Source of the DNA: a virus
IMG/VR virus record: IMGVR_UViG_3300044825_002608
Span: 1 to 64,000 of that record
Direction: 5' to 3' (one strand)
DNA: 64,000 nucleotides
The notes under the pieces were generated by a model that was not told the DNA's origin, did not search any database, and was given only the letters and a program-made list of their open reading frames with translations. Shown here in pieces: positions 27,900 through 52,254 of this stretch. The translations under genes and the position numbers were made by a program. The first letter of the stretch is position 1; every line of letters begins with the position of its first letter.

Positions 27900-27986
27900 C
27901 TTGGAGTTATAAACTCCATATATAAAAGTGATAGAGATTAAGTCACTGTTATATCCTTATGAGATATATTACACTTAATCCATCAT

Positions 27987-29344: not shown

Positions 29345-29509
29345 ATGAAAATTAATCTCTGGTATTGTAATAGCATGAAACAGTGGCGTTGGACTCTAAC
29401 GGATGACCATCGCCCAATTATAAAACAAGAATCTGGTCAAAGAGAAGATCTTCGCTCTGCTATGAATGATATAGCAAATACAGTTGAATATCTATTAAGT
29501 CATTCTTGA
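29345..29509 (+). CDS. 54-aa hypothetical protein
   Basis: MKINLWYCNSMKQWRWTLTD..., with an aromatic-rich N-terminus and a helical C-terminus (LRSAMNDIANTVEYLLSHS). Plausible start and codon use; the gene ends just before the tRNA remnant. Function unknown. Confidence 0.65.
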   Translation: MKINLWYCNSMKQWRWTLTDDHRPIIKQESGQREDLRSAMNDIANTVEYLLSHS

Positions 29510-29515
29510 CTTTTG

Positions 29516-29543
29516 GGGCGATTAACTCAGCGGTAGAGTATCT
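29516..29543 (+). pseudogene. 5' half of a tRNA (disrupted, Val-like remnant)
   Basis: GGGCGAT (29516-29522), TA, D-arm ACTC AGCGGTA GAGT (29525-29539), then A and TCT (start of an anticodon stem). A complete tRNA 5' half ends exactly where a late promoter TATAAATA (29544-29551) and an HNH gene begin; no matching 3' half for this acceptor follows. Best read as the stump of a tRNA displaced by the HNH cassette. Confidence 0.7.
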
Positions 29544-29551
29544 TATAAATA
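29544..29551 (+). promoter_or_regulatory. Late promoter TATAAATA of the HNH cassette
   Basis: Perfect TATAAATA 22 nt before the HNH ATG, at the junction with the tRNA stump. Confidence 0.65.
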
Positions 29552-29572
29552 ATAAAGTATTCTACTAAACTG

Positions 29573-30004
29573 ATGAAACAAACCACCACTTGCTTAAATT
29601 GTTCTACAACATTTACTTACAATCCTTATCATAAAAGAGGTAAGTATTGTAATAATAAATGCCAACAAGAACATGTAAGAAATCAGTATATTACTGAATG
29701 GAAACAAGGTTTAGTTTCAGGTGGTTCTTCTTACAATTTATCGCAATATGTAAGAAACTATCTTTTGGAAGAAGCACAAAATAAGTGCTCTAAATGTGGT
29801 TGGTTTGGAACTAATATTCATACTGGTAAAGTTCCATTAGAAATCGACCATATTGATGATGACCCATTTAATCATTCACCAAGCAATTTACAGGTTCTCT
29901 GTCCAAATTGCCACTCTCTTAAAACTCAACCTCCAAGCAAGAGTAAAGGTGGAAGATATAAAAACGGTGGACATCCTAAACACGGGAGCATAGCTCAGCG
30001 GTAG
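29573..30004 (+). CDS. HNH homing-type endonuclease inserted at tRNA-Val
   Basis: 143 residues. An N-terminal zinc-finger-like part (CLNCSTTF...KYCNNKCQQEH) precedes an HNH core: CSKCGW (76-ish), VPLEIDHIDDDPFNHSPSNLQVLCPNCHSLK. The last codons (GSIAQR stop) are the D-arm region of tRNA-Val, overlapping it by 21 nt. With the 5' tRNA stump on the other side this looks like a mobile endonuclease cassette that uses the tRNA gene as its target. Confidence 0.85.
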   Translation: MKQTTTCLNCSTTFTYNPYHKRGKYCNNKCQQEHVRNQYITEWKQGLVSGGSSYNLSQYVRNYLLEEAQNKCSKCGWFGTNIHTGKVPLEIDHIDDDPFNHSPSNLQVLCPNCHSLKTQPPSKSKGGRYKNGGHPKHGSIAQR

Positions 30005-30056
30005 TAGCGTCTGCTTTACACGCAGAATGTCGGGGGTTCGAATCCCTCTGCTCCCA
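29984..30056 (+). tRNA. tRNA-Val(TAC)
   Basis: Acceptor GGGAGCA/TGCTCCC perfect, anticodon stem TCTGC/GCAGA with loop TTTACAC, T-arm GGGGG TTCGAAT CCCTC. The D-stem has one weak position (GCTC versus TAGC, C-T mismatch). Its first 21 nt are also the end of the HNH coding sequence. Confidence 0.88.
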
Positions 30057-30059
30057 TTT

Positions 30060-30067
30060 TATAAATA
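30060..30067 (+). promoter_or_regulatory. Late promoter TATAAATA before the Dps-like gene
   Basis: Perfect TATAAATA 22 nt before ATG 30090, directly after tRNA-Val. Confidence 0.7.
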
Positions 30068-30089: not shown

Positions 30090-30524
30090 ATGGAAAAATT
30101 ATACAAAATTTTATCTGATACTCAAGCAAGTCTTTTTGTTCTGTTTCAGAAAACTTGGGTATATCACTGGCATATTACTGGATCTGATTTCTATCAAATT
30201 CATACTCTTTTTGGAGAACAATACAATGCACTCTTTGAAGAGGTAGATAGAATCTCAGAACATATTCGTTTTCTTGGTGCTAAACCAATTAGTGCTCTTT
30301 CTAGAGTATCTGAAGTGGCAAGAGTTTCAGAAGCAAAAAGTGGTCTGTCTGAAATGGATATGATTAAAGATCTATTACAGGACCATAAAACTCTTATAGA
30401 TATGTTTAGTGAAGCAGCAAAAGTTGCTGAAGAACTAAATTCAAGAGGAACAACAAATCTACTTGATGATTTAAACGAAGCACACGGTAAGTTTGTTTGG
30501 TTTTTAAGATCGTTCACTGAATAA
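30090..30524 (+). CDS. Dps/ferritin-like protein
   Basis: 144 residues from ATG 30090 (upstream in-frame codons overlap the tRNA). The Dps core is clear: LFQKTWVYHWHITGSDFYQIHTLFGEQYNALFEEVDRISEHIRFLGAKP, with the HW...H...D...E ferroxidase-type residues, then four-helix continuation ending HGKFVWFLRSFTE. Dps proteins sequester iron and shield DNA from peroxide. A late promoter suggests it may be made late or packaged. Confidence 0.85.
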   Translation: MEKLYKILSDTQASLFVLFQKTWVYHWHITGSDFYQIHTLFGEQYNALFEEVDRISEHIRFLGAKPISALSRVSEVARVSEAKSGLSEMDMIKDLLQDHKTLIDMFSEAAKVAEELNSRGTTNLLDDLNEAHGKFVWFLRSFTE

Positions 30525-50004: not shown

Positions 50005-52254
50005 ATGACTGCTACTATCGCTCGTCAGCGTGGTGGAAGTAACACTTGGGAACAATTCTGTGAGTGGGTAACTTCTACCAATAACCGTCTTTATGTCGGT
50101 TGGTTTGGAACTCTAATGATTCCTACCCTTCTCGCTGCTACTATTTGTTTCATTGTTGCTTTCATTGCCGCCCCTCCCGTAGACATACTGCTTTAATCTG
50201 TGTCCTTCATCCGTAAGGGTGATGTTAAAACTGGGTGAATTGCTGGAAACCGAAAGGCAATCAGCAGCCAAGCCTTAGGTACACCTAAGGAAGGTTCAGA
50301 GACTACCTGAGGGGTTTAGTCCCCTTAATAACAGGCAAGAGTGCCCAGCCCCTTTAATAACTTATAAAGGGTGAAGATATAGTCCAAACTTCACAGAGTA
50401 ATCTGTAACAACCTAAGTCTTATGATATGGTTGTTTATATGAAGTTGAGACGGGATTCGTGAACCAGTCGCTGGTTCTCTAATGTATGGAAACAACATCA
50501 TTTCTGGTGCTGTTGTTCCTAGTTCAAATGCGATTGGATTGCATTCGTAAAGGAGTGCCTTATATCAGAAATGGTATAAGAAAATCGGGTGAATTGCTGG
50601 AAACCTAACCCAGTAAAAGGATAAAAATGTATAAATAATAATATGGAATACACTTTTATCCTAATGACTATCTACGAACAGTTTATTGAGTATTGTAAAT
50701 CAAACAACTTTGATAGTGAGTATTATGAAAAACACCATATTGTCCCAAAACATAATGGTGGAACTGACGAAAAAGAAAATCTGATTTACTTACCTCCTCA
50801 TATTCATACACTCGCACATTATTATCGTTGGTTGTCATTTCAGGAAATAGGTGACAAAGTTGCTTATGAAATGAGATGGAACCAAGATATTAAAAGTGTA
50901 AAACTTCGTTCTCAACTTGCTGTTAAAAGTAATAAAGAAAAAGGTAATCTTTTTTGGAATACTGAATGGCAAAGAGAACAAGGATTAAAGGGTGGAAAAA
51001 AAGGAGGTTCTGCTAATACTCAAAACCAGTTTCTTGCCAGACAAAAAGTTGGTAAAACTTATGGAAAGCAAGTTGGACTTTCAAGACAAAAAGGTGATTT
51101 AGTAGAAATGCTAAAAAACTCAACGACTTGGAAACATAAAACTGGAAAAACTGTTACTCTTCCTCCACAAGAAAGTATTACTAAACTTTGTGAGAAACTT
51201 CAAAGTATTGAATATTTTGAAACTCCTAACAAAGCTCTTATAGGAAAACTTCTTCGTGCAGAAAAGAAACAACTTTATGGATGGTCTTTTACTGGTATGG
51301 CAATCAGCAGCCAAGTCCCAAGTACACTTGGGAAAGGTTCAGAGACTACCTGAGGAGTTCAGTCTCCTTAATAACAGGTTTAAGTGCCCGACACCCTCAA
51401 TTTAGGGTGATGATATAGTCCACACCATATGGAAACTTATGGGTTATGTGTTCTATCCAATCTGGGAAGCTGCTTCCCTTGATGAATGGCTCTACAACGG
51501 TGGTCCTTACCAACTTGTAGTCTTCCACTTCCTTATTGGTATCTATACCTATATGGGTCGTGAATGGGAACTTTCATACCGTCTAGGTATGCGTCCTTGG
51601 ATCTGTGTTGCTTACAGTGCTCCCGTCGCTGCTGCTTCTGCTGTGTTCCTGGTCTATCCTTTCGGTCAAGGTTCTTTCTCTGATGGTATGCCTCTGGGTA
51701 TCTCTGGTACTTTCAACTTCATGCTTGTGTTCCAGGCAGAGCACAACATTCTGATGCACCCATTCCATATGATGGGCGTGGCTGGCGTATTTGGTGGTTC
51801 TCTATTCAGTGCTATGCACGGTTCTCTAGTAACTTCAAGCCTAGTACGAGAAACTACCGAAAATGAAAGTCAAAATTATGGTTACAAGTTCGGTCAAGAA
51901 GAAGAGACCTACAACATCGTAGCTGCACATGGTTATTTTGGTCGTCTTATCTTCCAATATGCTTCGTTCAACAACTCTCGTTCACTGCACTTCTTCCTTG
52001 CTGCTTGGCCAGTTGTAGGTATCTGGTTCACTGCTCTTGGTGTAAGCACCATGGCCTTCAATTTGAACGGAATTAATCTAAATCAGTCTATCCTTGATAG
52101 TCAGAATCGTGTTATTAATTCTTGGGCAGATGTGCTAAATCGTGCCAACCTCGGGATCGAAGTAATGCACGAAAGGAACGCACATAATTTTCCTCTAGAT
52201 TTGGCTGCTGTTGAGCACACTCCTGTTGCTCTAACTGCACCTTCTATTGGTTGA
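50005..52254 (+). CDS. psbA: Photosystem II D1 protein, split by two group I introns
   Basis: Joined from 50005-50186, 50448-50544 and 51451-52254: 182 + 97 + 804 nt gives 360 residues, the normal D1 length including the C-terminal extension. Exon 1 ends in ...APPVDI (codon 61 split after AT), exon 2 encodes [20 protein letters not shown]... to GLH, exon 3 begins [13 protein letters not shown]. All splice junctions restore frame and the conserved D1 sequence; 5' exons end in T and introns end in G, as group I splicing requires. D1 binds the Mn cluster, P680 and QB; phage D1 replaces the photodamaged host copy during infection. Promoter and leader hairpin upstream, terminator downstream. Confidence 0.95.
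50187..50447 (+). other. Group I intron 1 in psbA (261 nt, no ORF)
   Basis: P1 pairs exon GACAT (50182-50186) with the internal guide GTGTC (50200-50204), giving the U-G pair at the 5' splice site. Core elements: P-like GAATTGCTGGAAACC, GAAA-capped P5, Q-like AATCAGCAGCC, R/P7 TTCAGAGACTACC and S AGATATAGTCC (about 50374-50384). The final intron base is G 50447. It is closely related to intron 2. Confidence 0.88.
50630..50637 (+). promoter_or_regulatory. Late promoter inside intron 2
   Basis: Perfect TATAAATA 6 nt before the HNH ATG at 50643 (or 28 nt before the next in-frame ATG at 50665), inside the intron. This resembles the internal late promoter of the T4 td intron endonuclease. Confidence 0.65.
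50643..51353 (+). CDS. Intron-encoded HNH homing endonuclease
   Basis: 236 residues (ATG 50643; ATG 50667-region MTIYEQ is an alternative start). The HNH core is [35 protein letters not shown] (H-H...N...H). Then come repeated GKKGGS/NTQNQ and Lys-rich segments and a NUMOD-like C-terminal helix ([30 protein letters not shown]). The last residues ([17 protein letters not shown] stop) are encoded by the intron catalytic core itself. Probably cuts intronless psbA to spread the intron. Confidence 0.87.
   Translation: MEYTFILMTIYEQFIEYCKSNNFDSEYYEKHHIVPKHNGGTDEKENLIYLPPHIHTLAHYYRWLSFQEIGDKVAYEMRWNQDIKSVKLRSQLAVKSNKEKGNLFWNTEWQREQGLKGGKKGGSANTQNQFLARQKVGKTYGKQVGLSRQKGDLVEMLKNSTTWKHKTGKTVTLPPQESITKLCEKLQSIEYFETPNKALIGKLLRAEKKQLYGWSFTGMAISSQVPSTLGKGSETT

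Follow-up and report, generated by a model that had tools for sequence, protein, structure and literature searches.

The gene for SegB, a free-standing endonuclease, lies between T4 tRNA genes downstream of a predicted late promoter and a hairpin, and in SegB, I-TevI, and MobE the position of the late promoter leaves one arm of an inhibitory hairpin out of the late transcript (PMC2988022). The cleavage sites of SegB are within tRNA genes, and in T6 there is microhomology between the 3' end of segB and the 5' end of a tRNA (PMC13096335). In T4-like cyanophages, tRNA genes mark rearranged genome regions and might be mobile-element substrates (PMC3037559). For a homing endonuclease near psbA in S-PM2, the papers that cite the original work speak of "intronless homing" (Zeng et al. 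2009, as cited in PMC3037559 and PMC2984593).

The locus described here resembles that of SegB (T4/T6) in placing an endonuclease gene between tRNAs with a late promoter motif and a hairpin upstream. SegB is a GIY-YIG enzyme, whereas the protein encoded here is a predicted HNH nuclease; unlike in segB, the gene end overlaps a tRNA 5' end and provides no stop codon of its own, a whole tRNA travels along, and the displaced tRNA is left as a stump. The locus shares with I-TevI, I-TevII, I-TevIII, and Aeh1 MobE a promoter between hairpin arms but, unlike I-TevI and its group, is not intron encoded and has no visible ribosome-binding site. The S-PM2 endonuclease, as the citing papers present it, is likewise free-standing in a T4-like cyanophage but linked to psbA rather than to a tRNA gene. 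We consider it probable that the locus holds a free-standing, SegB-like homing cassette that lives at tRNA genes but has an HNH nuclease and carries its own tRNA. On our best reading, the cassette unit comprises a hairpin with an embedded late promoter, the HNH gene, and a complete tRNA-Val fused to the 3' end of that gene. The HNH nuclease and the tRNA passenger are new with respect to SegB-like free-standing endonucleases, and a partial literature search found no description of cyanophage HNH genes that are joined to tRNA genes.

The HNH gene and its overlap with tRNA-Val

The window, the 64,000-nucleotide stretch that we analyzed, is part of a 99.7-kb IMG/VR virus record and represents a fragment of a freshwater T4-like cyanophage related to Kyanoviridae such as S-SRM01. 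It contains tRNA clusters, as well as open reading frames (ORFs) that we take, from our own reading of the sequences, to be transaldolase-like and 6-phosphogluconate-dehydrogenase-like. The order at the locus is ORF54, a tRNA-Val 5' stump, TATAAATA, the HNH gene, a full tRNA-Val(UAC), and a Dps-like gene (Table 1).

Table 1. Coordinates of features at the HNH locus of the window
Feature	Position	Strand	Basis
ORF54 (phrog_2818), left flank gene	29345..29509	+	Common to HNH-less relatives
5' stump of displaced resident tRNA-Val (acceptor strand, D-arm)	29516..29539	+	24/24 identity to intact tRNA-Val
Hairpin 5' arm, overlapping stump D-arm (GGTAGAGTAT)	29532..29541	+	Fold z, -5.2; 93.8% of cells paired
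T4-type late promoter motif TATAAATA, between hairpin arms	29544..29551	+	Sequence
Hairpin 3' arm, ending 6 nt before HNH start codon	29557..29566	+	Fold z and pairing
HNH endonuclease gene, 143 aa, stop codon within tRNA-Val	29573..30004	+	Pfam, PHROG, conserved residues
Complete replacement tRNA-Val(UAC); first 21 nt are also the HNH ORF end	29984..30056	+	ARAGORN, Rfam, DSL-LC02 identity
Second TATAAATA, putative late promoter of Dps-like gene, outside any hairpin	30060..30067	+	
Dps/ferritin-like gene, right flank, common to HNH-less relatives	30090..30524	+	Pfam Ferritin

The HNH protein matched the Pfam HNH model at 27.7 bits (cut-off, 21.4) and PHROG HNH families; the Pfam and PHROG searches found HNH only, with no GIY-YIG nuclease domain. 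It combines an N-terminal zinc-ribbon-like CxxC...CxxxC with a C-terminal HNH motif (invariant D92-H93, N105, and H114), and the HNH residues and three Cys pairs are invariant across 20 relatives. In an AlphaFold2 model (pLDDT, 83), the nearest solved folds are McrA-type HNH domains. The gene is ended by a TAG (30002-30004) that the tRNA-Val D-loop supplies; this codon lies inside the tRNA, and gene and tRNA therefore overlap by 21 nt, as the preliminary description had noticed.

All of the 21 closest IMG/VR HNH loci (11 distinct cassettes) have tRNA-Val at the gene end, with the stop codon at differing positions inside the tRNA. Wider relatives end between ∼30 nt inside and 15 nt before tRNA-Thr, Asp, Asn, Ile, Arg, Met, or Gln. 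Such overlap is not rare in itself, because tRNA 5' ends hold ready stop codons (TAG near positions 8 to 10 and in the D-loop). Among clustered ORFs of at least 100 aa that end within 60 nt of a tRNA, an overlap of at least 5 nt was found in 23 of 35 HNH clusters versus 15 of 61 non-endonuclease clusters, statistics that overstate independence because the loci are related and were collected partly by HNH similarity. The HNH gene could be an ordinary or domesticated phage gene that random recombination moved within a tRNA hot spot, with an accidental stump and no homing; the mosaicism of phage genomes and the 15 non-endonuclease clusters fit this account, which we nevertheless regard as unlikely since HNH genes overlap tRNA starts far more often, their catalytic residues are invariant, stumps recur at two isotypes, and a hairpin with a late promoter appears to mark endonuclease genes specifically (see below).

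An HNH gene of an unrelated family, with its HNH motif N-terminal, also ends in a tRNA-Val D-loop (L100:912-1451; final residues KHGRLTQR before the stop) and has its own TATAAATA hairpin.

The displaced tRNA-Val and its replacement

All 24 nucleotides of the stump, GGGCGATTAACTCAGCGGTAGAGT, match the start of the intact tRNA-Val(UAC) genes of L093, L100, L102, L115, L134, and L136. When the region upstream of HNH was compared with tRNA-Val, the best 20-nt match was 20/20, whereas none of 200 dinucleotide shuffles exceeded 16/20. TATAAATA takes over from the stump at 29544; the coordinates given in the preliminary description were correct. Relative to ORF54, the stump has the position of the intact tRNA-Val in L115, L087, and S-SRM01; the last of these has one intact tRNA-Val directly before Dps and no HNH. 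In L115, the stump sequence continues straight into an intact tRNA (TGACTTTTCGGGCGATTAACTCAGCGGTAGAGTGCGCTCC, versus TGACTTTTGGGGCGATTAACTCAGCGGTAGAGTATCTTAT in the window), the continuation that had been anticipated for HNH-less relatives. Because an intact tRNA-Val occupies this spot in HNH-less relatives and L115 reads through, we identify the stump as the 5' end of the resident tRNA-Val. Alleles with and without HNH at one site are represented by S-SRM01, L087, L115, and others, and by RN05-S versus RB11-B.

Tandem tRNAs are common in these clusters, and HNH might have entered the spacer between two tRNA-Vals, the first of which then decayed. This history is very unlikely: the stump shows no decay (24/24) and breaks off sharply at the cassette, and among 38 distinct HNH-less IMG/VR relatives, 30 have exactly one tRNA-Val beside Dps and none has two at this spot. 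A pair of full tRNAs in such relatives, which the preliminary description had named as evidence against an insertion, was thus not seen.

In four loci (L088, L117, L118, and L143), ORF54 precedes Dps with no tRNA-Val called, apparently through clean tRNA losses. In four others (L121, L103, L105, and L107), the tRNA-Val position before Dps holds a tRNA-Val-like gene missed by ARAGORN (GCCCGAT...TTTACAC...ATCGGGCA), with a cloverleaf fold and a noncanonical T-loop (AGCATTA or AGCGTAA); in MA01 (L166:1773-1845), such a gene lies directly before an HNH gene.

The downstream tRNA-Val(tac) was called at full length by ARAGORN and scored 65.7 bits with Rfam (gathering threshold, 29). The preliminary description had proposed that the cassette split a tRNA while bringing a replacement 5' half, as integrases do at tRNA attB sites. 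A resident 3' half kept in an att-like manner would agree with the stump and complete tRNA that flank HNH and with the repeated 11-nt CTCAGCGGTAG, but GGGCGAT, the acceptor strand in the stump, can pair at only 4/7 positions with the 3' strand TGCTCCC, whereas the new 5' strand GGGAGCA pairs at 7/7. Moreover, the entire tRNA matches the tRNA-Val of DSL-LC02, where no HNH gene is attached, at 73/73 positions and differs at a single position (72/73, 98.6%) from the HNH-attached tRNA-Val of L007 and L013 to L016. Acquisition of a 5' half is therefore quite unlikely. The acceptor mismatch and the identity to DSL-LC02 indicate that the whole tRNA was exchanged; the comparisons support entry of a complete replacement tRNA and do not support a half. 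Displacement of the resident tRNA-Val is thus retained from the earlier proposal, and regeneration of a half is replaced by exchange of the whole.

The attB comparison itself fails, as neither an integrase nor att-type repeats were seen and the insert contains no gene other than HNH. Elements that integrate at tRNA attB sites likewise use a tRNA gene as an entry point and preserve its function; the HNH cassette differs from them in that it has no integrase and no att core repeat, that the 5' rather than the 3' part is left, and that the whole tRNA is exchanged. The C-T mismatch, or extra D-arm base, that had been attributed to a regenerated D-stem is real, but it was not created by the insertion because the identical tRNA occurs HNH free in DSL-LC02. 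The 11-nt CTCAGCGGTAG is the longest stretch shared at the locus. Recombination between its copies would delete HNH at the cost of a chimeric tRNA whose acceptor stem pairs at only 4/7 positions, and the cassette may therefore be helped to persist.

HNH genes are often intron encoded, which would suit a group I intron or another splicing element interrupting tRNA-Val. We regard this as extremely improbable, given the full tRNA downstream, the mismatch between the stump and the 3' half, and the lack of any intron family found by Rfam.

A hairpin with an embedded late promoter motif

The cyanophage late promoter is NATAAATA (PMC2984593). We read TATAAATA, which the preliminary description had left unrecognized, as a late promoter in a regulatory hairpin: it sits between the hairpin arms, beside the HNH start codon. 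The fold z score is -3.2 to -6.6 in 10 of 11 related cassettes and -1.6 in the 11th (L022). In their alignment, 93.8% of cells are paired and both sides changed at three pairs, whereas slid controls reached at most 55%. More distant loci (L028, L033, L077, and DSL-LC03) keep the hairpin-promoter layout with different arm sequences.

Among eight copies of TATAAATA on the + strand of the window, only the one upstream of HNH lies in a strong hairpin. Of 127 distinct TATAAATA sites that have an ORF downstream, 27 lie in strong hairpins, and 26 of these are followed by HNH or GIY-YIG genes; for the remaining 100 sites the corresponding number is 23, in a sample that is enriched for endonucleases, classed by motif, and made up of related rows. 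These counts suggest that a hairpin with a late promoter specifically marks endonuclease genes, and searching phage genomes for this signature is an easy route to homing endonucleases. The leader of the presumed late transcript is unstructured (29558-29590 folds at 0 kcal/mol, with the transcription start assumed). No Shine-Dalgarno or other ribosome-binding site is evident before the HNH ATG.

Operator mimicry, in which a hairpin arm and promoter imitate the tRNA target as in I-TevI, was considered and rejected: the best 20-nt matches of stump-free cassettes were no better than those of shuffles, and likeness between hairpin arm and tRNA D-arm in these cassettes was not significant beyond a few bases. 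In this respect, too, the cassette differs from I-TevI, since mimicry of a homing site is not significant here. Elsewhere on the + strand, an ORF from 50643 onward, preceded by TATAAATA at 50630, has an HNH-like stretch and looks like another endonuclease with no strong hairpin.

Independent movement, recurrence, and a proposed mechanism

The HNH gene of the window is 93.9% identical at the nucleotide level to that of L007, where ORF54 is missing and the alignment of Dps covers 222 nt at only 68.5%. The window flanks are instead closest to those of HNH-less phages, L087 for Dps (88.0%) and L088 for the next gene (98.8%). HNH genes that are ∼94% identical in phages with diverged or absent flanks argue that HNH moved independently of its surroundings, and these comparisons indicate that the gene and its tRNA moved as a unit.

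Stumps are seen elsewhere. The L017 stump fits the first 25 nt of tRNA-Val and 27 nt of tRNA-Ile equally well, and that of L018 is truncated. tRNA-Val is not special, as tRNA-Thr is affected likewise in isolate DSL-LC03: a tRNA-Thr(UGU) 5' piece reaching into the anticodon loop is followed by a hairpin, HNH, and a complete tRNA-Thr. The counterpart locus of WH25-B has Leu-Thr-Ala tRNAs without HNH, and in S-RIM8, which has these same tRNAs, a different gene stands between those for Leu and Thr. A mirror image is found in L033, L039, and L040 (tRNA-Val, hairpin, an HNH relative, the last ∼17 nt of a different tRNA-Val, and Dps). In the HNH tree, the backbone of which is unresolved, the three 5' stump loci are not grouped together. 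A search of more distant HNH relatives for stumps yielded nothing clearly above the null except L167; apparent stumps in L079 and L015 were rejected as an unrelated degenerate tRNA and an uncalled tRNA-His, respectively.

A comparison of RN05-S with RB11-B and S-B05 shows tRNA-Asn and tRNA-Tyr replaced by a tract with another tRNA-Asn, a hairpin, and HNH; identity resumes exactly at the tRNA-Val 5' end. The RN05-S tRNA-Val is unchanged from that of HNH-less relatives, a point against the homing reading since the carrier would have to resist its own enzyme, and most cassettes are stump free, which makes a cut inside the tRNA less certain.

The evolutionary event at the locus is real and well supported, with the stump, empty alleles, whole-tRNA replacement, flank-independent transfer, recurrence at other tRNAs, and a conserved hairpin and promoter motif all visible in the genomes compared. 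From these we infer expression timing, cleavage, repair from a donor, homing, and a microhomology join, as follows. Read-through transcripts of the tRNA cluster would fold the hairpin beside the HNH start codon, keeping the gene untranslated. Late in infection, RNA polymerase would start inside the hairpin, so that late mRNA would lack the 5' arm and HNH would be made. During mixed infection, HNH would cut the tRNA-Val region of an HNH-less phage, and recombinational repair would copy the cassette into the cut genome; with a whole tRNA-Val included in the cassette, the recipient would not lose tRNA function. The left join in the window would have fallen in the D-arm of the resident tRNA, with GTAGAG common to this arm and the hairpin arm, and would have left the 24-nt scar.

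More tentatively, and with some doubt, one can picture an HNH cassette family that uses tRNA genes as both target and repair patch. Its subfamilies would each be welded to the 5' end of one isotype, the resident tRNA would be replaced by an uncuttable allele, and the family would be a main driver of cyanophage tRNA turnover; since the gene borrows its stop codon from the tRNA, tRNA maturation by RNase P would leave a non-stop HNH mRNA. The recurrence of the stump-HNH-tRNA layout at other tRNA genes points to a reason for the frequent reshuffling of tRNA clusters in these viruses. The SegB-like cassette that we favor would be a concrete agent of tRNA-region rearrangement in T4-like cyanophages. 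Homing at tRNA genes becomes directly testable through the scars, the empty sites, and closely related isolate pairs such as RN05-S and S-B05, which have Synechococcus MW02 as a common host.

Two further loci bear HNH genes beside tRNAs. In L076 (3626-4402), a 14-nt tRNA-Thr 5' piece (GCCGGTATAGCTCA) and a matching acceptor-like 3' piece (TGCCGGCACC) flank a complete tRNA-Thr and HNH; the arrangement is suggestive of a tRNA split on both sides, with pieces not above their null. L006 is nearly identical to the window (99.9% over 4.9 kb), but at the position of AGTTATAAACTCCAT in the window (27905-27919), between tRNA-Arg and tRNA-Asn, it has an additional, distinct HNH gene that is accompanied by its own TATAAATA and an inverted repeat (2012-2353). 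This difference is a presence/absence polymorphism of HNH within one phage population.
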